Of a stretch of 44,721 bases of DNA, positions 29,209-44,397 are shown in pieces. Position 1 is the first letter of the stretch, and each line of letters opens with the position of its first letter. The notes below the pieces were generated by a model. The model did not search any database. It was not told where the DNA came from and saw only the letters and a program-made list of their open reading frames with translations. A program made the position numbers and the translations under genes. This DNA is from Caldisericia bacterium. Lineage in GTDB: Bacteria > Caldisericota > Caldisericia > UBA6126. The stretch covers positions 1-44,721 of the forward strand of contig JAQVSG010000010.1 in NCBI GenBank assembly GCA_028700655.1. Direction: 5' to 3'.

Positions 29209-29639
29209 TCTTCTTTCTCCTTGTATGCAACCAGCATAGATCGCACTTGTTTTTGATAACATTCTGGGGCTTGGCTTACGATCTTCTCAATCCACTCTTT
29301 CTGTTCTGAAGTCAGTGGCTTTTTTCGTTTTTTAGGTTGTACTTGTTTTACATTTCCTACCACAAATCGAATCTCTTTGACCATATCTTGTTGCAATGTG
29401 CGATTGATTTTCTCGATCATCTCTTCTTTCATTTGGTGTAGCTCTGTAACATAGATAGAATTTTTGCATGCAATCGTAAGGAGACCTGTCCTAAAACCAA
29501 GAATTTTGGTGGATCGAGCCAGCATTTTTCCTACAGCTTGTGGGTACGCATTATGGATGAAAGAACTCTCAATAATATTTTTTCGATCGTATTTTCGTCG
29601 TGAAAAAAAGGAGTGAAGAGATTGGTTAATTTTCTCCAT
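29181..29639 (-). CDS. DUF721/DciA-like protein
   Basis: AVGKMLARSTKILGFRTGLLTIACKNSIYVTELHQMKEEMIEKIN; follows recF. Confidence 0.8.
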   Translation of the reverse strand: MEKINQSLHSFFSRRKYDRKNIIESSFIHNAYPQAVGKMLARSTKILGFRTGLLTIACKNSIYVTELHQMKEEMIEKINRTLQQDMVKEIRFVVGNVKQVQPKKRKKPLTSEQKEWIEKIVSQAPECYQKQVRSMLVAYKEKEECSKRGSQI

Positions 29640-30693
29640 ATACACTTCCGTCTCGTACTTCTAACAATCGTCCAGAATCCTTTACACAACTCGGTTGCAA
29701 AGAAGTTAAAAACAATTGTGCTTTCGGTCGAATAAACTCAAACAATGTTTGAAAATTATCCGCGTCAAGTTCGGATTGAAAATCGTCCAACAAAACAACA
29801 GGAACATTTTTTGTTTCTTGTTCTAAAAAATGAAACTCACACAATTTGAGCACAAAGGATACAATTTTTTGCTCTCCTTCAGAACCATAAATACGCAATG
29901 ATTTTGTATTTCGTTTCATACTAATCCGGTCTAGGTGAGCACCAATCAGTGATGTACCACGAGCAATCTCTTGCTCTTCCAAGAGCTTCCTATTCACATC
30001 CAATTGGGAAGGAGAATAGACAATACGTATTTCCTGTAAAATAGGAAACTGTAGTCGATCACACACAGAAATAAACACATTCTGCATTTTTTCAATCGTT
30101 TTTTGTCTTTCTTTTTGAATGACCGTCGATACATGAAGAAGGGTATGTGTTAATGTGTCGTAAAGCTTTCTATCTTGGCTTTCACGAAGACCTTTTTTTA
30201 GTAAACAGTTTCTCGACTTATAAGTCAGAGCATACCGATTTAAAATAGAGAGATAGGGAGGATTTTCTTTCGCATGAATCCGATCGATAAATTTTCTCCG
30301 ATACTCTGGTCCCCCTTTCACAAGTTCTGGGGTACTGGGCGTCATTAACACAACATAACAAGTACCGAACAAATCCACAATTCGCTGGTTTTCCATTCCA
30401 TTTACGGTAATTTTCTTTTTCCCGTTTTTTTCCCATGAAATGGCAACTGTTTTGTCTGCACCATGGGTGAAGATATCTACTTCAGTACGTAGAAAAGAGG
30501 CCCCATAATTGAGCAAATGGAGATCTTGGCGAGTCCGAAAACCGTTTCCTTGCAGAGAAAAATAGAGAGCTTCCAGAAAATTCGTTTTCCCCGCTCCATT
30601 TTTCCCAACAATCACATTCACATTTCGAGAAAAAGAGCATGCAATCTGTTCAAAACTTCGAAAATTTGTTGCCTGCAAGTGGTCAACAAACAT
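29626..30693 (-). CDS. recF: RecF
   Basis: NVIVGKNGAGKTNFLEALYF, VVLLDDFQSELDADN, adjacent to dnaN. Confidence 0.95.
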   Translation of the reverse strand: MFVDHLQATNFRSFEQIACSFSRNVNVIVGKNGAGKTNFLEALYFSLQGNGFRTRQDLHLLNYGASFLRTEVDIFTHGADKTVAISWEKNGKKKITVNGMENQRIVDLFGTCYVVLMTPSTPELVKGGPEYRRKFIDRIHAKENPPYLSILNRYALTYKSRNCLLKKGLRESQDRKLYDTLTHTLLHVSTVIQKERQKTIEKMQNVFISVCDRLQFPILQEIRIVYSPSQLDVNRKLLEEQEIARGTSLIGAHLDRISMKRNTKSLRIYGSEGEQKIVSFVLKLCEFHFLEQETKNVPVVLLDDFQSELDADNFQTLFEFIRPKAQLFLTSLQPSCVKDSGRLLEVRDGSVYGEN

Positions 30694-31802
30694 TATTTCA
30701 TCCGAATTGTCACCAGAACGTACAAGTAATTATCAGAATCAGGTTCTTTGATAACCAGAGGATGGATAGAGCCTTGCAGGTTGTACTCTACAAGACTGGT
30801 TTCTACTCCCTCAACACCTTCGATCATATACCGGGCATCAAAGAGGACTTCGCACGCTTCACCACTGCGATTCATAAACTCAACAGGGACTTCTTCTTCT
30901 CCAGATCCAACTTCAGGATCGCTTGCGACCAACATAATGGAGTTCTCCTTCAGTTTCATACTAATGCGGCCCGTATTGGTACGAACAACCAGGTATAATC
31001 TTTGCAGGGCGTGGAGGAGTTTTTCGCGGTTTACAATAAAGCGGTATGCCGATTCTTTAGGTATGACTTTTGTATAGTCAGGAAAAGTTGAATCCACAAG
31101 TCTCGAAACTAGCGTTTGATTTTCAAATGTGAACTTTATCTCGCGTTCTGCAACAACCATGGTCATTTTGTCTGTGCTTGCTTTCATCGAAATACGAGAT
31201 AAGATTTTAAAAACTTTGGGAAGTGCTAAAACACGAATTGTGTTATAGTCTTTCTCTTCTATGGTTTTTGCAACCACCAATCTTTGTGCATCGGAAGCAA
31301 TCATCCGAAGTTCGTTGCCATCAGACTGCAAAGGAATGCAATGTAAATTAAGATTCCCTTCCACCTTCTGGGAAACAGCAGGAGACACTTTGTTGTACAA
31401 AGAAATTAAATGGCTACTAGAAACTTCGTAGGAAGAACCTGACACCTCCGGCAAAGTAGGGAATTCTTCCGGATTGATACAGTGAATCGAAAAATGGTTT
31501 GTTTGACCAAATATGGTAAGATGCAAATCCTGAAACTCGAGTTTGATAAACTCTTCTTCCATATTTTTTACAATATCGGTCAGCAATTTTGCGGGGATCG
31601 CAACTGTTACATCCCCATCTGCTTCGCACTCCAGATGACTGGTGAAACCAATCTCTAAATCGGAGGCGGTGATGGTAATGATTTGATTCGCCACGGAGAA
31701 ATGAAAACAGTTCAACACAGGTACTAAAGAGCTAGAAGGAATTACAGTAATCATCTCTTGCAAAATGGTACTAAGGTCATTTTTCTTACATTGTACTATC
31801 AT
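30693..31802 (-). CDS. dnaN: DNA polymerase III beta subunit (sliding clamp)
   Basis: MIVQCKKNDLSTILQEMITVIPSSSLVPVLNCFHF...; DARYMIEGVEGV; overlaps recF by TAATG. Confidence 0.95.
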   Translation of the reverse strand: MIVQCKKNDLSTILQEMITVIPSSSLVPVLNCFHFSVANQIITITASDLEIGFTSHLECEADGDVTVAIPAKLLTDIVKNMEEEFIKLEFQDLHLTIFGQTNHFSIHCINPEEFPTLPEVSGSSYEVSSSHLISLYNKVSPAVSQKVEGNLNLHCIPLQSDGNELRMIASDAQRLVVAKTIEEKDYNTIRVLALPKVFKILSRISMKASTDKMTMVVAEREIKFTFENQTLVSRLVDSTFPDYTKVIPKESAYRFIVNREKLLHALQRLYLVVRTNTGRISMKLKENSIMLVASDPEVGSGEEEVPVEFMNRSGEACEVLFDARYMIEGVEGVETSLVEYNLQGSIHPLVIKEPDSDNYLYVLVTIRMK

Positions 31803-31816
31803 TTTATATACCTCTT

Positions 31817-34528
31817 TTAGGTGAAATGGAAATAGAGAAAGATTGTTTGCGTACCGCCATCCCATTCTATTGTAGCACCTAAAGGTTCTGTGACAAATCG
31901 GAGCGGTACCATCGTGCGATTGTTCAAAATGAATGGAGCAGCATCAATCTTAGCCATTTTACCATTTACAAAAATTTCTCTTTTCCCTATCCATAATACT
32001 ACTTCGTTTTGTTTATACAAAACTTGAATCCTTTTTTCTTGGGGATCCCATTGAACAGATCCACCTACTATTTCACTCACGAAGCGAAGGGGAACATATG
32101 TTCTTTGTGATTGTAGAATAGGAGGTGCTTCCAGCTCCCAAGGCCACAGATAATCATTTACATACACATGTTGGTTTTGTATTTGCAATCGAATCGTATA
32201 GGATTCTGAAATACAGCTCACTTCAATTGATCTTTCTTGTACAGATTGGTCGGTGGCAATGGCTCGAAATTGTAGTTGACTTATACCGGCAGGCACTCCA
32301 ACCAAGGTTGAAAAGAGCCCATCTGAAGAAAGAGAAATCGGTTGATTTTGAACATAAAGTTTTGCTTTCGGATCGGCTTTGCCTTGTATTTCAAAAACGG
32401 GATGAAAGACAGTAATATTAGCATCCTTGTATAGTTGCAGTGAAGAGGGTCGAGGGATCAGTGACAGTTCGTTGGAAAAATCACTATGAGCCCCTTCTTT
32501 TGTCACTGCCTTCAGGGTGTAGTAATACAATACTCCATTGCTAACAGTATCGTCCACATACATTTCCTCTTGTCCAGGTAGGGAAGCAATTCGAACCATT
32601 TCATCACCAGACACTGTGGATCGATATACATCCAGGGACCAAATCCCAGGATATTTTTTCCAATACAAAACAGATCTAGTATCGGATCCATAAATTTTTT
32701 CAAGAGTCGGAGGTTGCAGAAAAGAAGAATCTCCTTTTAAGGTTTTCATAGATACGGGGATGTGAATCGATTTTGGTTCCATTCCAGATCCCGAGCATAA
32801 CAATATCAATTCCGCCTGATATTCCCCAGGAGGAACTTGGGTACCATCTGCTTGTATTGTTAATACTGCCGAACCCTGAGGAGCAATGCTGCCCGAAGTG
32901 GGCTCGTAATCCAACCATATAGGGGTAAGATCCTGAGAAGGTATACCGGTCACCATATTCGAGTTGGTGCTCTCATTGCCGTAAGTATCAAAAGCCCTTA
33001 CGATATATCTGTATTTTACACCATTTTCCAAAGGTGCATCTTCGTAATAATGAACAATACCGACAGTATCGATAAAAGAAAACTCCATCTCAAATTCTTT
33101 TTTTCGGTAGATATGAAATCCTGCTAAATCTGGTTTGGGTTGTTCTATATCCCAACTCAAAATGAATTTCTGGTGGCCTGGATAGCCTTTCAATCTTGCA
33201 GGAGCAAAGGGTGGAATCACATTTTCGCCGACGCGGCAGAATGCAATCATATCTCCACTATTGTCTTCTACGTACAAAAAACCTTGCGCCATTACGAGAG
33301 GGGAGTTAATAGGAAACGACAAGGAATGCAACCAAATATCCGATCCATTGTTTCGATCAAAACAATAAATAGTCCCATCGTTTCCACCAAAATAGACAGT
33401 ATTCCATGCCACAATGGGTGGTATCAGAATGGTTGTTCCTACATTTTTTTCCCATTTTTTTTGCCCAGACAAGCGGTGCAAAGCAATCGCTTTCCCAGTC
33501 CCTGTAGAAAAGAAGACGTATTGTTCATCGACAGCGATAGAGGCTGTAATATAATCTTCTATGGGGTATTTCCATATCTCGTTTCCATCCAGAGAAAAAC
33601 AAACAACAGTACTCTGGAGATTGTTTTCATCAGTGGAGCAATAGTAAAGATTGTGTGCAAAGAATACGGCGGGTCCTGGAATAGGGTGGTCGGTGGTCAT
33701 AGAGTATACTTCGCTGCCCGTTCGGCAATGGGCTATCCAAAGGTTTGTATGATTCAAAACAGCCGCCAAAATTCCTTCATCGGTGGCAATAAAATCACAT
33801 TTCCCCTGACGATACCAAAGTTCACGTCCTGTAATAAGATCCAAACAGATCAGTTTCGATTGTGTACCAATAAACAACAAACCTTCCCATGCCGCAATAC
33901 CATACAAATTGGGTACAAAATAAGGTTTTGTCCAAATGACTTGCTTGGCAATTCGATCAAACAAAACAAGGTTCTGATTTGTAGCCACAATTAGATATCT
34001 TGTATAAAGATGAACGGAATATATGGCATCGCCTATGTGGTAAGAGTCTTGTTTGACGCCAGTTCTACTGTGAATATGATGGATTCTGCCATCCTCGGAG
34101 GGTAGGTATAGGTTGGTACCAGATAAAACAGGAGGTAACACGGCCTTGCTATAAGTGGATCGCCATTTCTGTTCAAAAGGGGGAGACGTTGATTCTATCT
34201 TGTTGTATCCTGTTCTTGCATAATCATACTGAGGAGTTACCCATGGAGAGCCAACTTCCTCAGAAGACACGCCGTCCGTTTCAAGAAAACTATTGTTTTG
34301 GCTTGGATTGGGTACTGCTTCTTTAACGACAGCAAATTGTAAAGGCTGTGTCGTTTGATTTGTAATTAACACTGCTTTGGTATCTCTCTGAGTAGAAGTT
34401 TGAGAGAAGGAAACAGACGAAGGCTCAACAGTGATATTGGCACTCCCCTGTACGGAATAAAAAAGAAATTGAGACTCCGATATCAGCAGACAAAGTAGTA
34501 CAACCAAGCAAAACCGAATTGTTTTCAT
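31817..34528 (-). CDS. Secreted protein: PQQ-type beta-propeller, fibronectin III-like modules, copper amine oxidase N-terminal-like domain
   Basis: Repeated propeller motifs (TGRELWYRQG, SGQKKWEKNVG, NGSDIWLHSL), FN3-like YRYIVRAFDTYGNES, C-terminal RTYVPLRFVSEIVGGSVQWD and RTMVPLRFVTEPLGATIEWD. Confidence 0.88.
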   Translation of the reverse strand: MKTIRFCLVVLLCLLISESQFLFYSVQGSANITVEPSSVSFSQTSTQRDTKAVLITNQTTQPLQFAVVKEAVPNPSQNNSFLETDGVSSEEVGSPWVTPQYDYARTGYNKIESTSPPFEQKWRSTYSKAVLPPVLSGTNLYLPSEDGRIHHIHSRTGVKQDSYHIGDAIYSVHLYTRYLIVATNQNLVLFDRIAKQVIWTKPYFVPNLYGIAAWEGLLFIGTQSKLICLDLITGRELWYRQGKCDFIATDEGILAAVLNHTNLWIAHCRTGSEVYSMTTDHPIPGPAVFFAHNLYYCSTDENNLQSTVVCFSLDGNEIWKYPIEDYITASIAVDEQYVFFSTGTGKAIALHRLSGQKKWEKNVGTTILIPPIVAWNTVYFGGNDGTIYCFDRNNGSDIWLHSLSFPINSPLVMAQGFLYVEDNSGDMIAFCRVGENVIPPFAPARLKGYPGHQKFILSWDIEQPKPDLAGFHIYRKKEFEMEFSFIDTVGIVHYYEDAPLENGVKYRYIVRAFDTYGNESTNSNMVTGIPSQDLTPIWLDYEPTSGSIAPQGSAVLTIQADGTQVPPGEYQAELILLCSGSGMEPKSIHIPVSMKTLKGDSSFLQPPTLEKIYGSDTRSVLYWKKYPGIWSLDVYRSTVSGDEMVRIASLPGQEEMYVDDTVSNGVLYYYTLKAVTKEGAHSDFSNELSLIPRPSSLQLYKDANITVFHPVFEIQGKADPKAKLYVQNQPISLSSDGLFSTLVGVPAGISQLQFRAIATDQSVQERSIEVSCISESYTIRLQIQNQHVYVNDYLWPWELEAPPILQSQRTYVPLRFVSEIVGGSVQWDPQEKRIQVLYKQNEVVLWIGKREIFVNGKMAKIDAAPFILNNRTMVPLRFVTEPLGATIEWDGGTQTIFLYFHFT

Positions 34529-34737
34529 GTGGATGATTTTTTTCCAGCCTCCAACCATTTTAATTTTGTTTCAACCGTTAATACGATACCAAATAAAATG
34601 AGAATGCTCCCTGCACAGATCACAAGCATCTTCTGCTCACCAGCTAGGTGGTAAAAGGAGCACAGCCCCAACAAAACTACAATGACAAAAAGTATAATGA
34701 ATGACAAAGCTGTAAGTATATTTTCACTTTTTTTCAT
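34525..34737 (-). CDS. Small two-TM membrane protein
   Basis: Two hydrophobic segments; ATGA overlap with the downstream gene. Confidence 0.55.
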   Translation of the reverse strand: MKKSENILTALSFIILFVIVVLLGLCSFYHLAGEQKMLVICAGSILILFGIVLTVETKLKWLEAGKKSST

Positions 34738-34739
34738 AC

Positions 34740-35033
34740 TTAATCCTCCAAATGCCATTTTTGAATCCAGGAATCAAACCATGACAAGCGTCTTTTAATG
34801 TTCCCGTCACGGGTATCATGCAAATAGATAATGAACCCAAGAAACATGACAAAACCAACAAAGAGAATGAGTGCAATGAGGAACATCAAAAAATGGGTTG
34901 TCTGATACCCAAAACGAATCAGCAATTGTACTTTTGAAAAAAGTACATTGCCCATAACAACAGTTGGTAGCAAGGCGACCCAGAAAAACCAACTGCTATT
35001 TCTGATGAACCAATGCGCCTTTTCTTTTTTCAT
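34740..35033 (-). CDS. Small membrane protein, accessory of the cytochrome b operon
   Basis: Two hydrophobic segments; overlaps the 3' end of the cytochrome b gene. Confidence 0.6.
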   Translation of the reverse strand: MKKEKAHWFIRNSSWFFWVALLPTVVMGNVLFSKVQLLIRFGYQTTHFLMFLIALILFVGFVMFLGFIIYLHDTRDGNIKRRLSWFDSWIQKWHLED

Positions 35034-36147
35034 TACGCTCTACTTTCTTTTGCCACCATCCAAACCCAAGTATAAATGCAATATAGATACCAAAAATCCA
35101 AGGGATGTCAGCACGTAAAATTTCAGATTCTGAATAAATCGCCGATCTCCAAGAAAGAATAATGAACAATGCATATCCAAGAACTAGAAGCGAATTCCAA
35201 AGAGGTCGTTTGGAGGGTTTTTTAAAATGGTTTCGTTCAATATACGGCATAAAAATGACGAATACTAAAAAGATGATGTTGAAGAGAATTCCCCACAAAA
35301 AGTCCAGGATTTTTAAGAAATAATATACAAAAAGGAAGTACCAATCCGGCAATATGTGTTCTGGAGGAGAAGAAGGATCCGCTGGGGCGAGAGAATGAGC
35401 CGGTTCAGCAATTTGCCATACAATCACAATGGCAAACAGTAGAATCACTCCCAATGCAGGTAAATTGACTCGTTTTTTTCGGAAGAAATAATAGTAGGAC
35501 TCAGCCAATACAACAATACCCACTGGTAACACATAGTGAAGGGCATAGAATCGAGTGAGTGTATTGGTACAAATAACAACCGACCCCCGCGCAATGAATT
35601 GGATGAAAGATCCTAGATGCAAATTGCCCAAAAGTGGGAGTTCATCTACAAAAGAAGGCATCGTGGTTCCAATGGTTGTAGCCCAGTAAGCCCTCTGGTC
35701 CATGGGTAATATATAGCCGCTAAATCCAAAAACAGTCGTAATGACCACAAAAAGTACAGCCCAAAACCATGTAAACTCATGAGGCTGTTTGTGTTCTGCT
35801 GCAAAGAAAAGACGGAACACGCGAAGCATCGCTAATATGATGATCGTATCTGCTAAATATCTATGAAAACCTCGCAACCATGGACCAATAGCAACCCCCC
35901 ACAATTGGAGTGTCATGATAGACTCAACACTCCTATACGCCATTTCAAAAGAAGGAATATAGTAAATGGCGAGTATGGATCCTAGTAAAATTTGTATCAA
36001 CAAACCAGAATACAGCATTCCTCCAATCCAATAAGCAGGATTTTTCGGGTGTTTTGGTTGTAATGTTTCGTCAAAAAGATCTATATTTCGAAATCGATTT
36101 TTGATCCAGTACGTTATTTTTTGCCATGTGTTCTCTCGTGCAGACAT
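34996..36147 (-). CDS. Cytochrome b/b6-type protein with Qo motif PDWY; heme bH ligands absent
   Basis: RGFHRY...GYILPMDQRAYWATT...TLTRFYALHYVLP...PPEHILPDWYFL. H95 and H204 present; residues 109 and 218 are R and Y. Confidence 0.9.
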   Translation of the reverse strand: MSARENTWQKITYWIKNRFRNIDLFDETLQPKHPKNPAYWIGGMLYSGLLIQILLGSILAIYYIPSFEMAYRSVESIMTLQLWGVAIGPWLRGFHRYLADTIIILAMLRVFRLFFAAEHKQPHEFTWFWAVLFVVITTVFGFSGYILPMDQRAYWATTIGTTMPSFVDELPLLGNLHLGSFIQFIARGSVVICTNTLTRFYALHYVLPVGIVVLAESYYYFFRKKRVNLPALGVILLFAIVIVWQIAEPAHSLAPADPSSPPEHILPDWYFLFVYYFLKILDFLWGILFNIIFLVFVIFMPYIERNHFKKPSKRPLWNSLLVLGYALFIILSWRSAIYSESEILRADIPWIFGIYIAFILGFGWWQKKVERNEKRKGALVHQK

Positions 36148-36156
36148 AACTTCCTC

Positions 36157-37044
36157 CTAGTATTCTTTTTCCAGAGTTTTTAACTCTTTCCAGGAAAAAA
36201 TGGGTCCATCTTGGCAAACATATTTGCCTCCACAGTTGCAATGTCCACATTTTCCAATTCCACATTTCATGTGATTCTCAAGGGAGACATACACCAAATC
36301 ATCAGGAAAATGAATAGTTGACAAATTATTAAGAATGGATTGGAACATAACAGGGGGTCCCACTACTAGAATCACGGTATTGGTTTGATCGGGAGAAGTA
36401 TGATGGAATAAGACTTCACTACAATCGCAATAGGATTTATCAACAAGATTACATACAAACCCTACATTGCCATCCCAACCTTTTTCAGGTTTATCAATGG
36501 TGATTTTACAGGTTGTTTTTTTCTTTAATCTCCATTGCTTCATTTCTTCTCGATAAATGATCTCTTGGGAATTTCTAGCACCAAACAGAATCTCTAGTTC
36601 CCCATATTGATCTTGGTTTCGAAAATAATCTTCAACAACACTTCGTAGTGGAACTAAACCAATTCCTCCTGCCACTAAAACGATGTTTTTCCCACGGAAT
36701 GTGTCCATTGGGAATCCGTTCCCAAAGGGACCTCTTAAGCCTAGATAATCCCCTTTTTGTAGGGTATGAATTTGGCTGGTAACAACCCCTGTTTTGGCAA
36801 TACAAAAAAGAAGAGTATGATTGATTGGGTCGTAGTCAGAGACAGATATTGGGGCTTCTCCAACCCCCGGTATAGAAAGTTGATAGAATTGCCCAGGGAT
36901 AAATTTTTCTGGATAGTTCTCTTTGGGTAAATCCACCAGAAAATGTTTTACTGTACTCGTCTGTTGACCAACTTCACGAATGGACGCAAAAAAGGGTAGA
37001 TAGGGATTATTCGTGGATGAAGGGATTTTTTTATTCTTCTCCAT
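36157..37044 (-). CDS. FAD/NAD-binding oxidoreductase with [2Fe-2S] C-terminus (HydG/FlxA-like)
   Basis: PGQFYQLSIPGVGEAPISVSD, LGLRGPFGNGFP, LVAGGIGLVPLRS, C-terminal MKCGIGKCGHCNCGGKYVCQDGP. Confidence 0.9.
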   Translation of the reverse strand: MEKNKKIPSSTNNPYLPFFASIREVGQQTSTVKHFLVDLPKENYPEKFIPGQFYQLSIPGVGEAPISVSDYDPINHTLLFCIAKTGVVTSQIHTLQKGDYLGLRGPFGNGFPMDTFRGKNIVLVAGGIGLVPLRSVVEDYFRNQDQYGELEILFGARNSQEIIYREEMKQWRLKKKTTCKITIDKPEKGWDGNVGFVCNLVDKSYCDCSEVLFHHTSPDQTNTVILVVGPPVMFQSILNNLSTIHFPDDLVYVSLENHMKCGIGKCGHCNCGGKYVCQDGPIFSWKELKTLEKEY

Positions 37045-38074
37045 GATCAACAACCTCCTTAATATCTTTAATAATAGACACCATGTCAATATTTACAGGA
37101 CAAGATCGAGTACATCGTCCGCATCCTGTGCAAGAAAAGAGTCCAAGCTGCTCGACTGAATACTGATATTTATGCATTACTCTCTGCCGCAATCGAGCTT
37201 CTCTTGTAGCTCTAGGATTATGTCCCGAAGCATGCAAGGTAAAGGCATAGTTTTGGCACGTATCCCATGTTCGGTATCGACATCCATCTTGGCAAGTTTC
37301 TAACAAGTCGGCAGAATCAAAACAAGTGCAGGTGGGACAGTTGAATGTACAAGCACCACAAGCAATGCATACATCACTGTATGACTTCCAGATTGAAGAG
37401 GAGTACGCAGAATCAATGCGGCCTTTGATGGATAATAAATCCACCTTTTCTCGAATCATTGATTCTGTTTGCTTCTGAATGGATGGGAGAACTTCATTAT
37501 CTGCCTCTGGAGAATCTTCAAGCAAGGACGGTATTTTTTCAATCAGATCCTTTCCTTTAACAGTGAGCACTTCAACAAGATAAAAGGAGTCTGTTTTTGC
37601 CATCATAATATCGGCGCCTTTTGAATCTACAGGTGAATTACCCACAGATGTGCAAAAACACGTATTGAGAGGATTTTGACATGCCCATCCTATAAGGATC
37701 GTGTGTTTCCATTTTTCCAGCACATAGACATCTTGGTGTGTTGTCGAATAGAATTCTTTTACATAGGCTATTGCATGCAAATCGCAAGGCCGAATCCCTA
37801 GAATAATTTGTGGTTCGTTATGCAGCGTTTCTTTCAGCGTTGCTTTCCCATCTTTTTGTAGATGAAATGTATACAAGGTTTCCATTTGAGGAAATAAATA
37901 TTCTTTGGGAGATCGGAGAGGGTTGCTCCCCTCTAACACTATGTCAGCTACTTGTTCAACAGGCCTAAATTCGCGTTCACCTGCATCGGTTTTAACAGGA
38001 GCAATCAGAGTAGCTTGCTTTTGCAATTCCTGTAGAAAGGCTTGTAAATTGTTGATTTTGAGTCTCTTTCTCAT
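37031..38074 (-). CDS. [4Fe-4S] dicluster protein, HydB/AsrA/FlxB-like
   Basis: CIACGACTFNCPTCTCFD and CTGCGRCTRSCPVNIDM. Confidence 0.85.
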   Translation of the reverse strand: MRKRLKINNLQAFLQELQKQATLIAPVKTDAGEREFRPVEQVADIVLEGSNPLRSPKEYLFPQMETLYTFHLQKDGKATLKETLHNEPQIILGIRPCDLHAIAYVKEFYSTTHQDVYVLEKWKHTILIGWACQNPLNTCFCTSVGNSPVDSKGADIMMAKTDSFYLVEVLTVKGKDLIEKIPSLLEDSPEADNEVLPSIQKQTESMIREKVDLLSIKGRIDSAYSSSIWKSYSDVCIACGACTFNCPTCTCFDSADLLETCQDGCRYRTWDTCQNYAFTLHASGHNPRATREARLRQRVMHKYQYSVEQLGLFSCTGCGRCTRSCPVNIDMVSIIKDIKEVVDHGEE

Positions 38075-38083
38075 GATTCCTCC

Positions 38084-39076
38084 TTACACCAAATCTTCGC
38101 CCAAATTGTAGGAAAGAAGTTTTTGTCTTTCATCGTTGGTTTTTCCCGGTTTATAACCAAACTCTTCTTCCATACATCGGTTGAAATATTCAAAAAATAT
38201 ATGAAGCGGAATATCTTTCGGACAGGCTCTTTCGCATTCACCACAACCCGTACAGTTGGGGGCTATATGATGGAACCGAATCATGTGATACAAAATTGTA
38301 TTCTCTGTTGTCACTTGATTTTCCACTAGCTTTGCACGTTCTTTGGGTTTATCAAACACACACTGATCAGAACAAAAGCAAGCAGGGCAAATATTGCGAC
38401 ACGCATTGCAACGGATACATCTACTAAGTTCTTGATGAATCTTCTGTTGTAACTCTTTGGGACTCATCGTATCTTGCGGTAATTTCTTATGAGTTTGGTA
38501 ACGGTGTTTCAAGCGTGTGCGATATTCTTTTTCGTCACCCACAAAATAGTAGCCATAGTAGTAGGGCAAATCACAGTTTCGAGCATCCTCGCATTTGCGA
38601 AGCCAACTTTCTCTTTTTTCAAAGACATACTCTTTTCCACTGATATCAGTACATAGGATCTGAAAATCAGTTTCCTGCATGTCAACGATAGACTGATCAC
38701 AATGTTTTTCAATCTTCTTTCGATCAATGATTCCATCACAAGCTACCACAATTAGATTCACCAAAGTCTCGGATATTTGTTGATCAGAAAATGTTTGCAT
38801 GACAGATTTAGCATCACAAGGTTTGCACACAATATGAATCTTCCCCTTAAAATGAGGGGGCAGAATCTCTTGTCGATTCCTTTCGTTAAGATATTTTGCT
38901 AACGATATATCACAAAAAGAATCAAATACGATATCTTGAATATCCTCTTTTCGATACAAAAAAGCAGGAGTTCGGTGTCCAGGCAAAGATGCATTTTTCC
39001 ATGCTATGATTAAATCGCCTGGTTTCCATATCTGTGTTAAAAGTTGCTGAACATTTTGCTCAATTTGCTTTTTCAT
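38084..39076 (-). CDS. [4Fe-4S] dicluster protein, FlxC-like
   Basis: CIRCNACRNICPACFCSDQC and CTGCGECERACPKDIPLHIFF; strong RBS before ATG. Confidence 0.82.
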   Translation of the reverse strand: MKKQIEQNVQQLLTQIWKPGDLIIAWKNASLPGHRTPAFLYRKEDIQDIVFDSFCDISLAKYLNERNRQEILPPHFKGKIHIVCKPCDAKSVMQTFSDQQISETLVNLIVVACDGIIDRKKIEKHCDQSIVDMQETDFQILCTDISGKEYVFEKRESWLRKCEDARNCDLPYYYGYYFVGDEKEYRTRLKHRYQTHKKLPQDTMSPKELQQKIHQELSRCIRCNACRNICPACFCSDQCVFDKPKERAKLVENQVTTENTILYHMIRFHHIAPNCTGCGECERACPKDIPLHIFFEYFNRCMEEEFGYKPGKTNDERQKLLSYNLGEDLV

Positions 39077-39470
39077 TACTCCCTCCTTTTGTATCGAAGG
39101 TAGATATTCTCTCGATAAATAGATCAATGTCTGCCATGGTCTTTTTGACATCAGAGGGTTTATGCCACAAGGCTTGAAAACGGTCTTCCTCTATCCCAAA
39201 CGCTTTTAAAGTATATTTTGTAAGAAGAAATCGTCTTTCAGATATAGCGGACCCTTCTCGATAATGACAATCTCCTGGTTCACACCCTAGCACAATAACA
39301 CCTTTAGCGCCTTCATGGATCAACTTGAGCGCTACACTTGTATTAAAACGTCCTGCACAAGTAATAGGAACAACTTGAACAAGGGGGTATTTTTTTTGAA
39401 TTTCTTGAAGTACTTTTTTTCTTTGTTCCGCCAAGCAAGGGAAAAGATAAATCAATTCTTTGTTAGCCAT
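39060..39470 (-). CDS. MvhD/FlxD-like [2Fe-2S] protein
   Basis: CAGRFNTSVALKLIHEGAKGVIVLGCEPGDCHYREG. Confidence 0.9.
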   Translation of the reverse strand: MANKELIYLFPCLAEQRKKVLQEIQKKYPLVQVVPITCAGRFNTSVALKLIHEGAKGVIVLGCEPGDCHYREGSAISERRFLLTKYTLKAFGIEEDRFQALWHKPSDVKKTMADIDLFIERISTFDTKGGSNEKAN

Positions 39471-40459
39471 ATTGCCCGAACCTCCTCTTGTATAGATTTT
39501 GATGGGTCGTTATAGAGCTGAATTGCCAATGATCTACAAGCTCCCTCACATATACCACATCCTTGGCATTTTGTTTCATCCACAAAGGCCACAACACGTT
39601 GCCCATTGGCAATGGAATGAATTGCTTTTTTGGGACAAACATCGACACAATACAAGCAACCTGTGCATCGTTTTGGATCTACTTTTGCAAAAAGCTGTTT
39701 TCGCTTTAAGAATAAAGGAATCAAAGCAAGAAGGACACAAACACCCAAGAATATGAGTAAAACGGAAATTTGTTGCATAAAAGTGGGAACAGTGCCTTCG
39801 AATGCAACCGGTGTTTCGGGTAAATAGGGGATGGGAAAAAGCGCTGTTAAAATAAACATAAACCCTGTAATAAAAAGGAGTAAGGACAGTGGGGGTGTAA
39901 TTTTGGGTCTAGCAATGCGCTTAAAATGAGCAATAAGACCAATCAATATAAGAAAAGGTAACAACAGGTGAATTCCAAAATTCAAGGACAATAGATTTTG
40001 GTATTGTCGTCGTCCAATCTCAAAAAAATCGGCCCACTTCATTAACCAAGCTTCAAATTGTGGAGTATAGGAGGATAAAAAACCAGTATAAATAATGACA
40101 GCCACCAAAAAGACAAGGAACAAACCACTAACCCAACCCAGATTCCTGGGTTTGGTGATCTTATTGGTAGACCACATACGAAACAAATGTAAAAAAGCAA
40201 ACAATAGCATTCCCATGGCAGCGTAGCGATGAAAAGTACGCAAGTAGACTCCAAAGGGTAGCTGGTTGGTTATGTATACCAAAGAACCGTATGCACCTGG
40301 TATAGGGGTATTATAAGCTCCCCCAATGGCAGGAACAAAATTCATAAACAAAAAGGTACCCGAAAGAATTTGGAATACTAAAAAAATAAAAGTAATTCCG
40401 CCAAGGTAGTAGAAAGGGTTGTTTAGATACGATACTGTTTTGGTTTGAATGTCTCTCAT
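39452..40459 (-). CDS. Cytochrome b (b6-like) fused to a C-terminal 2x[4Fe-4S] ferredoxin domain
   Basis: RTFHRYAAMGMLLFAFLHLFRMW (H77/H91) and FGIHLLLPFLILIGLIAHF (H164/H178); C-term CTGCLYCVDVCPKKAI and CQGCGICEGACRSLAI. Confidence 0.9.
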   Translation of the reverse strand: MRDIQTKTVSYLNNPFYYLGGITFIFLVFQILSGTFLFMNFVPAIGGAYNTPIPGAYGSLVYITNQLPFGVYLRTFHRYAAMGMLLFAFLHLFRMWSTNKITKPRNLGWVSGLFLVFLVAVIIYTGFLSSYTPQFEAWLMKWADFFEIGRRQYQNLLSLNFGIHLLLPFLILIGLIAHFKRIARPKITPPLSLLLFITGFMFILTALFPIPYLPETPVAFEGTVPTFMQQISVLLIFLGVCVLLALIPLFLKRKQLFAKVDPKRCTGCLYCVDVCPKKAIHSIANGQRVVAFVDETKCQGCGICEGACRSLAIQLYNDPSKSIQEEVRAIWLTKN

Positions 40460-40965
40460 TCTCCACCTTCTTCAGTGCTTTCTAAATAGATATCGTCTCC
40501 TTCAACTTTGATTGAATAGACAGGTAAACCTCGAGGAGGTGGTCCTGCTGTAACCTCACCGGTAGTCGGATTAAAGGCACCATTGTGACAGTTACACCAT
40601 ATTCGTTGCTCAGGATCTTTTTCTTCATCCCATCGTACAATACACCCGAGGTGAGGACAAACTGCACTGTATGCATGAAACTCTCCATCCACATTGGCAA
40701 TGATTCCATAGATGTCTTGTCGGACATATTGAGGTCCAGCAAAAGGAAGATCGAGTTTCACACTGAAAGAATGCCCAGTTCCTTCAGGTACATCCTTCAC
40801 AGAAGCAATTACAATGGGTTCAAATTCGGCTGCAAATTGATACCCAAAAAACTTGAAGGGTTTCGCATCATGGTAAAAAAGCTGTAACAATGGAGATGCA
40901 AAAACGAACCCCGTTAACAACATACAAACAATCGTTGCTATAAGCACTTTACTGCTTTTTGTCAT
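40456..40965 (-). CDS. Rieske [2Fe-2S] protein, membrane anchored
   Basis: N-term TM; CPHLGC and CNCHNGAF boxes; PPPRGLPVYSIKVEGD. Confidence 0.93.
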   Translation of the reverse strand: MTKSSKVLIATIVCMLLTGFVFASPLLQLFYHDAKPFKFFGYQFAAEFEPIVIASVKDVPEGTGHSFSVKLDLPFAGPQYVRQDIYGIIANVDGEFHAYSAVCPHLGCIVRWDEEKDPEQRIWCNCHNGAFNPTTGEVTAGPPPRGLPVYSIKVEGDDIYLESTEEGGE

Positions 40966-41092: not shown

Positions 41093-41653
41093 TCAAGAAT
41101 CCATGGAAAAAAAAGACACTTGACCCACTCGGATTCTCCCCGTAGCAACCTTTACAATGACTACACTGCTGCGAAGATCGGGGTACGATGTTAGAATAAC
41201 ATGGCCCCCTGCAGAAGGAGTTCCTGCATACTTGAATGTTAATGTACGTGGGAGAAGGGGAGATCCACTGTACCCAAACTCGACGGAACCACTACAGATA
41301 CTACCGTATTCGTCAACATAAGCAGGGGTCAATATTCCAAAATAAAACGGAAATCCAATATTTTTGGGAAAGGTACGTGTAATGTATTTTCCCGAGCAAT
41401 TCAGTCCGTTTTCCTCGGTTTCAAATGCATAATAGTTATCTGTGGGATAAAACACAATTTTTAAATTCTGATGGGTGGAAATCGATTTCATTCGAAGCAT
41501 CTGGAGATCTTCGGCTAAGGTGCAAACGCAAATATCGAGTTGCCGTTGTTGCAACACATCCCTTGATAAAGAAACAAACGATCCACTAAGAATTACAATC
41601 ATCGACATCCAAAAAAAGAGTTCAAAAAATATATGAGAAGAAACTCGCTTCAT
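41093..41653 (-). CDS. GspH/FimT-like pseudopilin
   Basis: N-terminal hydrophobic helix FFELFFWMSMIVILSGSF, short start with ATG 41653. Confidence 0.6.
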   Translation of the reverse strand: MKRVSSHIFFELFFWMSMIVILSGSFVSLSRDVLQQRQLDICVCTLAEDLQMLRMKSISTHQNLKIVFYPTDNYYAFETEENGLNCSGKYITRTFPKNIGFPFYFGILTPAYVDEYGSICSGSVEFGYSGSPLLPRTLTFKYAGTPSAGGHVILTSYPDLRSSVVIVKVATGRIRVGQVSFFSMDS

Positions 41654-41654
41654 G

Positions 41655-42275
41655 TTATAAAAGGTATCCCACGATAAACCCAAGAGATATAAAGGGGATC
41701 AATGGAATTCTTCGGATTTGTAAAGGTTTTGAAAATGTAACTTTTTGGACAAAAATGACAATCATCGCGAAAATACTTCCTGAAATAAAGGTTATACAAA
41801 AGGAGGCCCAAATAGTTGCAATGGGGAACAATGGAGATAGAAGTGCAAAGTAAAGAATGTCGCCTTCTCCTAAACCTTGTTTTTTAGAAAAAATATACGG
41901 AAGGAACATGAATAGATAACCAATGAATGCTCTTGCAAAAACAATGCCTATACAACGACTCCAATTCGCAGAACACAATAAGGCTATACAAGAATACGAC
42001 TGGATAGCATGGGCACTTATAGTTCCTATCCATTCCTCCATAACCCGATACCCTGTTACGTAGGAGACACTGCTTCGCACAGCGAGTGGTAAACGAAGAT
42101 AACACTCGCTGGTGTCCTTCGCATAGGAGAGACATACAAAAAATATTACCAGTAGTGACAGCCACCAAAACCAAGTAACAGATATGCTCTGTTTTCGAAA
42201 ATCCTCCACAGAAAAAAGGATCATCGTAAGAAGCAATACGATTTTATCCACTGTAGAATACCTTTGCAATTTCAC
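41655..42275 (-). CDS. Type IV prepilin peptidase (A24), methyltransferase domain absent
   Basis: Catalytic Asp candidates in FSVEDFRKQSIS and GLGEGDILYFALL; IPLIPFISLG. Confidence 0.7.
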   Translation of the reverse strand: MKLQRYSTVDKIVLLLTMILFSVEDFRKQSISVTWFWWLSLLVIFFVCLSYAKDTSECYLRLPLAVRSSVSYVTGYRVMEEWIGTISAHAIQSYSCIALLCSANWSRCIGIVFARAFIGYLFMFLPYIFSKKQGLGEGDILYFALLSPLFPIATIWASFCITFISGSIFAMIVIFVQKVTFSKPLQIRRIPLIPFISLGFIVGYLL

Positions 42276-42825
42276 GTTTCAAAATTTTCCCACTGGTTGC
42301 TTCTTCTGTAGAGATTGTATATTTCATGGTTAAAGAAGGAGAGTAAATATACTGATGAGATAAAACATAACACTTGTAATAGGAATTCACATACAAGGGA
42401 ACCTGTAATAAAGGGTGTGTGTAAATCCCTTTTTGATCAGGCTTCAACATAAAAGCGGACATTTGACATATCATTTTTGTCGAAGTTTCATTGATGAATG
42501 TATAGACCAGAACGATATCTTCAGGGTGAACGGGACTACTTTTTAGATACACTTTTGGTTGTTCCAACAATTGCATTTTAAAGCCATCTTTCCCTGCAGT
42601 TTTAAAAAGGTCGAGTAAAATAAATTCTCCTGCTTCTTTCGCTTGATCCAATTTCATTTGATCCAATGACGCCTGCACAACAAGTTGATTTCGAAGGGTT
42701 TGTTGAATAGAGTAGACGGACAATAGAAGAAGCAGTGATATGATAAACACAACAGAGGGTAGAGCAAATCCTTTGCGTTTTAAACGAGCATATGGATGTA
42801 AAAAAGAATCCAATTGCGTTTTCAT
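42244..42825 (-). CDS. GspK/PilX-like minor pseudopilin
   Basis: KRKGFALPSVVFIISLLLLLSVYS prepilin-type N-terminus lacking Glu5. Confidence 0.6.
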   Translation of the reverse strand: MKTQLDSFLHPYARLKRKGFALPSVVFIISLLLLLSVYSIQQTLRNQLVVQASLDQMKLDQAKEAGEFILLDLFKTAGKDGFKMQLLEQPKVYLKSSPVHPEDIVLVYTFINETSTKMICQMSAFMLKPDQKGIYTHPLLQVPLYVNSYYKCYVLSHQYIYSPSLTMKYTISTEEATSGKILKREIAKVFYSG

Positions 42826-43325
42826 GATGTCAATGGAAAAAAGAGCATTCGTGAATACGTTCGTCCCATAATATCTTCTATACAGATTTGAATTTGTAAC
42901 GATTCTCCATCAGGGTATCTTGTTATCATGAACCTTCTGATTACTTTTTGAGTCAAATTTTGGAAGGTTCCATACCCTATGTCTCTACCTACTTCATTGC
43001 CTTTTGTATAATAACGGATCAATTTCTGATCTACGGTTTTAAAAGACAATATCTGTTCGCTAATCCCTTCTTTTGGACGTATTGAAATAGGCTCATACAT
43101 GAACTGTGTCCATTGTGTTTCAATGTCTTCCATTAAAAACAAAACATCATAATACACAGAATTTTGCTTTGTATCCTGGTACAAAGCACTTGAATATTGT
43201 TGTATCCATCCACCAATGGGGAATAGAATCATTCCACAAATCATCACACTTATCAAAGTTTCGACAGTGCTAAAAGAAGGGAAAGCGTGTCGGATCGGAG
43301 AAGGCTTCTTTTTTTGTTCTTCCAT
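42822..43325 (-). CDS. PilW/GspJ-like minor pseudopilin
   Basis: FPSFSTVETLISVMICGMILFPIGG prepilin-type N-terminus with Glu5. Confidence 0.55.
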   Translation of the reverse strand: MEEQKKKPSPIRHAFPSFSTVETLISVMICGMILFPIGGWIQQYSSALYQDTKQNSVYYDVLFLMEDIETQWTQFMYEPISIRPKEGISEQILSFKTVDQKLIRYYTKGNEVGRDIGYGTFQNLTQKVIRRFMITRYPDGESLQIQICIEDIMGRTYSRMLFFPLTS

Positions 43326-43330
43326 TTCTT

Positions 43331-43831
43331 TTATCCACACGATTTGATATACAAGGAAGAAGCACAATAGTGGTTGTTACCAAACGTATAAAAAACAATC
43401 ACATGATACAATGTGTAAGACTGCTGATAGATAGAAACAGGCTTTTTAGATACCAGTACTTGATAAGGATTTTCAATAATATCAGCAGGAAGAGAGATTT
43501 GGAAAAAAGGAATAGCACTTGATAAAGAAACGGGTACGGTAACAAAGGGATCGGTAGTATACTTACAATAATGAATAGGGGTTTCAAAAAATGTCTCGTC
43601 TTGAATCCATTCTTCGTTTTTACTGTGAAGCTGGCATGCTATAAAGTGACTAGTTTCAGTAAGTTTTCTTTGAAGTTGTGAGTGATTTTTGGAGGAATGG
43701 ACAAAGATCATCCAACGTTGAAATCCAAATAGAAAAATAAGAATACATAGAATAGAAACCAGGGTCTCAAAATAGGTAAACCCTGGTTTGGAGCAAGGAA
43801 AAAAAGATACGTATTTACGAGTTTTTTGCAT
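43331..43831 (-). CDS. Minor pseudopilin
   Basis: KPGFTYFETLVSILCILIFLFG prepilin-type N-terminus. Confidence 0.65.
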   Translation of the reverse strand: MQKTRKYVSFFPCSKPGFTYFETLVSILCILIFLFGFQRWMIFVHSSKNHSQLQRKLTETSHFIACQLHSKNEEWIQDETFFETPIHYCKYTTDPFVTVPVSLSSAIPFFQISLPADIIENPYQVLVSKKPVSIYQQSYTLYHVIVFYTFGNNHYCASSLYIKSCG

Positions 43832-43854
43832 AGTCCCTTTTGAGTTATAGGGTA

Positions 43855-44397
43855 TTATTCATCAAGTTCGATACTTACTATGCAATTGGAATCATATACA
43901 TCATCAAACTCATCAGAATATACAATGGTAATTGTATCGTCTGCAAGAGTAGCTGATGTATCGCTGATCTCAGCGGCTTTGTTGGGACCAATTGACCATA
44001 TTATGTAGTTTTGATGATCTACAAATAGGTGATACTTGTATTCATTCTCTGAGGTAGCTTGATTGAAAATATCTACAGGAATACGGACTCCAAGATAATC
44101 GATTCCTCCAGGCAACCCAGCGATGGTATAACTTTCACTTGTATTTACTGCGTCATCGGTTGTATCAATGCCCAGTAAATCGTTTAGTGAAGAAGGATAG
44201 CGACCCCAATCTGTATAGAAACACTTGATCGCTGTGGATATGGTAGAGAGATCCATTTTAGCACGAGCAGACTTACTTCTGTTAATATAACCTGCTACTT
44301 GGGGTACGGCAACGCCTGCGATAATGATAATAATGCCGATCGTAATAAGCAACTCTACCAAGGTAAATGCACGTTTTCGAACAGGATACTTTTTCAT
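43855..44397 (-). CDS. GspG-like major pseudopilin
   Basis: KRAFTLVELLITIGIIIIIAGVAVPQVAGYINRSKSARAKMDLSTISTAIKCFYTDWGRYPSSLNDL. Confidence 0.85.
   Translation of the reverse strand: MKKYPVRKRAFTLVELLITIGIIIIIAGVAVPQVAGYINRSKSARAKMDLSTISTAIKCFYTDWGRYPSSLNDLLGIDTTDDAVNTSESYTIAGLPGGIDYLGVRIPVDIFNQATSENEYKYHLFVDHQNYIIWSIGPNKAAEISDTSATLADDTITIVYSDEFDDVYDSNCIVSIELDE

Follow-up and report, generated by a model that had tools for sequence, protein, structure and literature searches.

An operon in the window, a 44,721-nucleotide stretch of DNA from a Caldisericia bacterium, encodes a Rieske protein, two unequal cytochromes b (cytb1 and cytb2) and the four proteins of a Flx module. These proteins probably assemble into one membrane complex that connects NAD(P)(H), (mena)quinone and an electron acceptor or donor on the p-side, with FlxD seated on a ferredoxin (Fd) domain fused to cytb1, and cytb1 paired with cytb2 as a heterodimer. 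A Rieske/cytochrome b complex with an NAD(P) reductase has already been proposed for anammox bacteria, and the individual parts belong to known families. The complementary cytochrome b pair, the fusion of an HdrA-type Fd domain as a putative socket for Flx, the composition and the distribution are new.

Operon organization and distribution

ORF inspection identified nine abutting or overlapping ORFs on the minus strand at 34525-40965 in the order Rieske, cytb1-2x[4Fe-4S], FlxD, FlxC, FlxB, FlxA, cytb2, TM1, and TM2 (Table 1). A sequence-only reading of the window had described a tight minus-strand operon with these families, and all nine ORFs and their family assignments were recovered. The operon end given in that reading corresponds to the likely internal ATG start of the Rieske gene. 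Alignments also place the likely starts of FlxC, FlxA, and TM2 at internal methionines, which means that the genes overlap or are separated by gaps of about 10 bases, as in one transcription unit. The cytb1 protein carries four haem histidines (H77, H91, H164, and H178) and Fd-domain cysteines between C265 and C308, and its Qo motif is missing. The structure match for FlxB is the sulfhydrogenase beta subunit (9nez_B, 6e-49). Of the two [4Fe-4S] dicluster proteins, FlxB (37031-38074) is AsrA/HydB-like. As a correction to the earlier reading, FlxC (38084-39151) is weakly AsrA-like and resembles FlxC and F420-Fdh beta; it is 23% identical to the Hdr-linked FlxC of its own genome (E 3e-28). Small TM ORFs also occupy the TM2 position in loci L017, L018, and L036. 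The operon proteins of the window have no CXXCH motif, and the one CXXCH in the operon of family f6 lies within FlxB.

Table 1. Coordinates and assignments of the operon genes in the window.
Feature	Coordinates	Strand	Evidence
Rieske [2Fe-2S] protein, one N-terminal TM anchor	40456..40965 (ORF to 41022)	-	PF00355 4e-12; CPHLGC...CNCHNGAF
cytb1-Fd, six-TM cytochrome b with fused C-terminal 2x[4Fe-4S] domain of HdrA C-terminal type	39452..40459	-	Cytochrome_B and two Fer4 in one ORF
FlxD (MvhD/FlpD family), four conserved Cys	39060..39470	-	PF02662 4e-24; Cys in 11/11 homologues
FlxC-like 2x[4Fe-4S] protein	38084..39076, likely start (ORF to 39151)	-	Fer4_8 1e-8
FlxB (HydB/AsrA-like, 2x[4Fe-4S])	37031..38074	-	Fer4_22 1e-29; ShyB 3e-57; AsrA 2e-46
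FlxA (HydG/AsrB-like FAD/NAD(P)/[2Fe-2S] oxidoreductase)	36157..37044 (ORF to 37089)	-	NAD_binding_1 4e-17; DHODB_Fe-S 3e-10; PRK08345 6e-70
cytb2, b6-like N-part and subunit-IV-like C-part fused, Qo PDWY, p-side haem ligands H95/H204 only	34996..36147	-	cyt b6 alignment
TM1, small membrane subunit, no family	34740..35033	-	place conserved in Caldisericota, Melainabacteria/Fimbriimonadaceae
TM2, small membrane subunit, no family	34525..34737 (ORF to 34758)	-	homologues in L016, L022

The genome of the window (G000) is a 1.95 Mb, 88.6% complete genome of Caldisericota, a phylum of little-studied anaerobes. A search of 54 genomes of the phylum located full-length cytb1-Fd in G000, G045, and G047 (family f1) and in G039-G043 (family f6) at 33-67% identity. 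The order Rieske-cytb1Fd-FlxD-C-B-A-(cytb2-TM1) was found in G045, G047, G043, G040, G041, G042, and G039. Every locus that lies clear of a contig end keeps it through TM1, and partial copies with the downstream portion stand at contig ends in G046 and G048. The synteny and co-occurrence that the sequence-only reading had named as its check thus recur in two Caldisericota families, down to 33% identity. Pilin-like genes lie upstream of the f1 operons and a gene for a propeller protein follows them, and the f6 operons are flanked by GroEL and a DprA-like gene. Because these surroundings differ, the linkage within the operon is no accident of a conserved neighbourhood.

In the window, six consecutive genes directly upstream of the operon (41093-44397, minus strand) have prepilin-like N-termini or are prepilin-peptidase-like (41655-42275), and prepilin-type genes are similarly placed in G045 and G047. 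The downstream gene (31817-34558, minus strand) encodes a 913-aa secreted beta-propeller with PQQ_2-like repeats and a C-terminal Cu_amine_oxidN1 domain. This protein was considered as a member of the complex and rejected, since its gene adjoins the operon in f1 only and is absent there in f6. RecF-like and DnaN-like genes, as read from their sequences, follow the propeller gene (29626-31865, minus strand).

Relatives outside the phylum were sought by scanning 85,462 species genomes with two peptide patterns, and the best 80 of 192 matches were used. Among these, full-length cytb1-Fd occurs at 27-28% identity in Caenarcaniphilales/Melainabacteria and in one Fimbriimonadaceae genome. The outgroup order is Rieske-cytb2-TM1-TM2-cytb1Fd-FlxD without FlxABC, and genes for cbb3 oxidase and cytochrome c stand upstream of this core. 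Among the best 80 of 192 matches to the two patterns, the set that includes FlxABC was found only in Caldisericota, which does not prove its absence elsewhere. Loci L031-L036 and L038 share with the window operon the Rieske protein, a cytb2 with one haem site, TM1, cytb1-Fd, and FlxD, and differ from it in the missing FlxABC, the adjacent cbb3 oxidase and cytochrome c genes, and the retention of Ser and Tyr in the Rieske protein. Their core, shared by the window operon, combines a cytb2 that has ligands for the p-side haem alone, a cytb1 with four His and eight Cys, and FlxD. The one-haem cytb2 and the cytb1-Fd-FlxD pair follow the cbb3 oxidase in L036:3623-11731, L031, L033-L035, and L038. 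The complex III/IV genes of aerobic Melainabacteria have been annotated as b6f PetB/PetC beside O2 reductases (PMC6349859), and the part of that account available for comparison makes no mention of a second cytochrome b or of FlxD.

Two complementary cytochromes b

The two cytochromes b were compared in sets of 12 cytb1 and 13 cytb2 sequences that include those of Melainabacteria and Fimbriimonadaceae. All four histidine haem ligands of cytb1 and the eight cysteines of its ferredoxin domain are present in 12/12 homologues. Caldisericota cytb1 has no PDWY, and the outgroup sequences retain a degenerate form of it (DWFY, NWLY). Alignment of cytb2 with solved cyt b6 indicates that the first His of helices B and D, which ligate the p-side haem, are kept, and that R109 and Y218 stand in place of His at the n-side ligand positions. 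This n-side ligand loss extends to all 13 homologues, with R/K and Y/F as the replacing residues, and these proteins keep an intact (P/S)DWY at Qo. The two b haems and the PEWY-type Qo motif that bc1 and b6f cytochromes carry in the same protein are therefore split over cytb1 and cytb2. The sequence-only reading had correctly noted two cytb genes but had missed their inequality.

The complementary ligand and motif losses lead us to predict an obligate cytb1:cytb2 heterodimer of the bc/b6f kind with electron crossing from haem to haem. On these sequences, the simplest reading is a single heterodimer in which electrons from the Qo site would be forced from cytb2 over to cytb1. The sole Qo site would lie in cytb2, next to that subunit's one p-side haem and to the Rieske protein. 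The operon resembles bc1/b6f in its Rieske ligands, the Qo PDWY, and the haem-bearing helices B and D. It is unlike them in that its two cytochromes b differ and show complementary losses, the operon encodes no c1/f subunit, and an NAD(P) module is attached. The AlphaFold model of cytb1 (pLDDT 70) has six TM helices followed by the Fd domain and matches bc1 and b6f cytochromes b; the model of cytb2 is poor and of low confidence (pLDDT 46) and was set aside. The Lys and Arg residues of cytb1 sit in the n-side loops, and this positive-inside pattern together with the six TM helices places the Fd domain on the n-side, in the cytoplasm.

Complexes of the bc type are treated as symmetric dimers, and whether electrons cross between their halves has long been debated with the help of engineered asymmetric mutants. 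A natural heterodimer with compulsory crossing, if the prediction is right, would make the question of inter-half transfer directly testable. In engineered bc1, bL-bL transfer between monomers is catalytically relevant and fast enough (PMC4330944). The cytb2 of family f6 (L017:5324-7384, L018:5146-6618) contains a p-side insert of about 100-300 residues between helices A and B, and it is possible that this insert is a docking domain for the Rieske partner.

The ferredoxin domain and the Flx module

The nearest relative of the cytb1 Fd domain is the ferredoxin domain at the C-terminus of HdrA, with 41% identity over 88 residues to a Coatesbacteria HdrA and 39% identity to the HdrA of its own genome; the corresponding region is also matched in solved HdrA structures. 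In HdrABC-MvhAGD, electrons from MvhD pass through the C-terminal Fd domain of HdrA (PMC9012536), and MvhD is described as the connector elsewhere as well (PMC12350162). A contact between the Fd domain and FlxD has a basis in homology, because the cytb1 domain resembles the HdrA domain that serves MvhD/FlxD. An MvhD gene lies directly downstream of the Fd-bearing ORF in 55 of 63 other loci, all found by the Fd motif. The earlier proposal that the Fd domain bridges cytochrome b to Flx is supported by this gene position and by the likeness to HdrA. FlxABCD would be on the cytoplasmic side, docked through FlxD to the Fd domain of cytb1.

The Flx assignment itself was supported by sequence comparison with the Hdr-linked Flx proteins of the same genome. 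These are encoded in a separate canonical hdrC-B-A-flxD-C-B-A operon (G000:C79), and the Rieske/cytb operon has no hdr genes; cytb1 occupies the place of HdrA ahead of flxDCBA. The Rieske/cytb-linked and hdr-linked Flx proteins are 23-36% identical, and the idea that the former are a recent copy of the latter was rejected for this reason. Every FlxABC set seen in family f6 is in a Rieske/cytb operon. The FlxA tree sets the Rieske/cytb-linked sequences apart from the hdr-linked Flx of other genomes with moderate support (88/86) and a long-branch warning, and the same separation in the FlxB tree is weak (47/12). It had been anticipated that Flx genes occurring mostly without the Rieske/cytb genes would count against the complex, and the f6 linkage and the two trees do not show this pattern for the present Flx set. 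FlxABCD-HdrABC (Ramos et al. 2015, cited in PMC6037941) shares with the window operon the FlxD-C-B-A gene order and, next to these genes, a protein whose C-terminal Fd domain is of the HdrA type. In that comparison, the window operon has Rieske/cytb in place of HdrABC and no bifurcating HdrA FAD; the genes for FlxA, B, C, and D are found together. These data suggest that the Flx module is able to dock onto a cytochrome b in addition to HdrA.

Electron flow and related systems

As traced from ligands and homology, the complete path would run from Qo/Rieske in cytb2 to haem bp of cytb2, haem bp and then haem bn of cytb1, the two [4Fe-4S] clusters, FlxD, FlxC/FlxB, the FAD of FlxA, and NAD(P). 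Its direction was considered from the Rieske protein. The C-x-H/C-x-x-H ligands are present in 12/12 homologues. Two second-sphere residues, Ser and Tyr, raise the Rieske potential by hydrogen bonding; Gly and Phe occupy these positions in 8/8 Caldisericota sequences, which suggests a low potential, and Ser and Tyr are kept in the oxidase-linked homologues. No c-type cytochrome was detected in the genomes that have the operon using twin CXXCH patterns and PF13442. The standard potentials are about -70 to -75 mV for menaquinone and about -320 mV for NAD (PMC12954380), and with these values the p-side acceptor would have to exceed about +170 mV for quinol to be bifurcated towards NAD(P)+. The Gly/Phe residues and the failure to find a cytochrome c with these patterns make net NADH oxidation somewhat likelier in Caldisericota, judging from the sequences, than quinol-driven NAD(P)+ reduction. 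NADH would then deliver electrons to quinone and to an acceptor on the p-side, and a Q-cycle might take part.

The forward mode, one of the two directions named in the sequence-only reading and the one proposed for anammox, would split the electrons of quinol. One would pass to Rieske and on to an acceptor of high potential, and its partner would travel via cytb1, Fd, and Flx to NAD(P)+. The single Qo site and the exit on the n-side towards an NAD(P) module fit this mode, as do the anammox precedent, where Rieske potentials exceed +300 mV (+303 and +335 mV for the Kuenenia proteins; PMC12954380), and the Melainabacteria-type homologues that adjoin a cbb3 oxidase with Ser/Tyr in place. However, the oxidase-adjacent homologues have no FlxABC in the operon, and with the Caldisericota Rieske residues and no acceptor of the needed potential found, the direction is energetically doubtful and we consider it rather unlikely here. 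The same path reversed, in which quinone at Qo is reduced jointly by NAD(P)H and, through Rieske, by a reduced donor on the p-side with the help of the membrane potential, should be favourable for donors below about +170 mV, as estimated from standard potentials. No such donor was identified and, to our knowledge, no Rieske/cytb enzyme runs physiologically in that direction, which makes this confurcation improbable. If the operon instead encoded two enzymes that exchange no electrons directly, one a Rieske/cytb complex and the other a soluble Flx/ferredoxin enzyme, this would accommodate the Rieske-cytb2-TM-cytb1Fd-FlxD loci of Melainabacteria/Fimbriimonadaceae that lack FlxABC. Yet FlxD accompanies cytb1-Fd even in those loci, every cytb1 homologue carries the Fd fusion, and the gene order is interleaved (cytb1-FlxDCBA-cytb2); we regard this arrangement as very improbable. 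More broadly, and tentatively, the single wired complex may be a naturally occurring and obligately asymmetric heterodimer of cytochromes b that confines quinol chemistry to one half, makes crossing compulsory, and passes electrons over an HdrA-type Fd to FlxABCD for NAD(P)-linked bifurcation or confurcation built from interchangeable Hdr/Flx parts, with a sister form free of FlxABC that feeds cbb3 oxidases.

Among the closest described systems are the anammox Rieske/cytb complexes Kuste4569-4574 and Kustd1480-1485, for which quinone bifurcation to NAD(P)H was proposed (PMC12954380). Compared by description, they share with the Caldisericota operon a Rieske protein, a b6-like cytochrome b, a subunit-IV-like part, and a cytoplasmic NAD(P) oxidoreductase with [4Fe-4S] clusters, which is putative in anammox and is FlxA-D in Caldisericota. 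The anammox complexes are modelled with a homodimeric cytochrome b and an extra interface haem, whereas Caldisericota have two different cytochromes b, which argues against such a homodimer there, and the multihaem cytochromes c of the anammox operons have no counterpart in the Caldisericota operon. The HdrA-type Fd fusion and FlxABCD are unlike the anammox description. The operon was not found in a Brocadiaceae-labelled genome or its order. The statement that this composition is undescribed stands for the open-access literature searched; an analogous complex and mechanism had been proposed for Kuenenia, a precedent that the sequence-only reading had missed. The proposal of quinone-coupled NAD(P) chemistry may thereby extend from anammox to a second, differently built complex.

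The complex may be an NAD(P)H-quinone link, since NuoH is absent from 5/5 f1 genomes (up to 97% complete), and the 11-subunit complex I operon of f6 (NuoA-D and H-N; L142:3258-13200, L143) lacks NuoEFG. The absence of complex I in f1 favours NADH oxidation, and the complex is a candidate NADH-quinone link for respiring bacteria without complex I. The futalosine menaquinone genes MqnA/MqnD (PF02621) were found in 0/54 genomes of the phylum, and an adjacent UbiA-UbiE (MenA/MenG-like) pair is present in G000, G045, G043, and G039. Cytochrom_C_asm (PF01578) occurs in 11/54 Caldisericota genomes, which are the ten of f1 and f6 plus G044. Beside the UbiA-UbiE pair in the genome of the window lies a gene for a NapH/NosR-like Fer4_5 membrane Fe-S protein (L117:8616-9257, minus strand).
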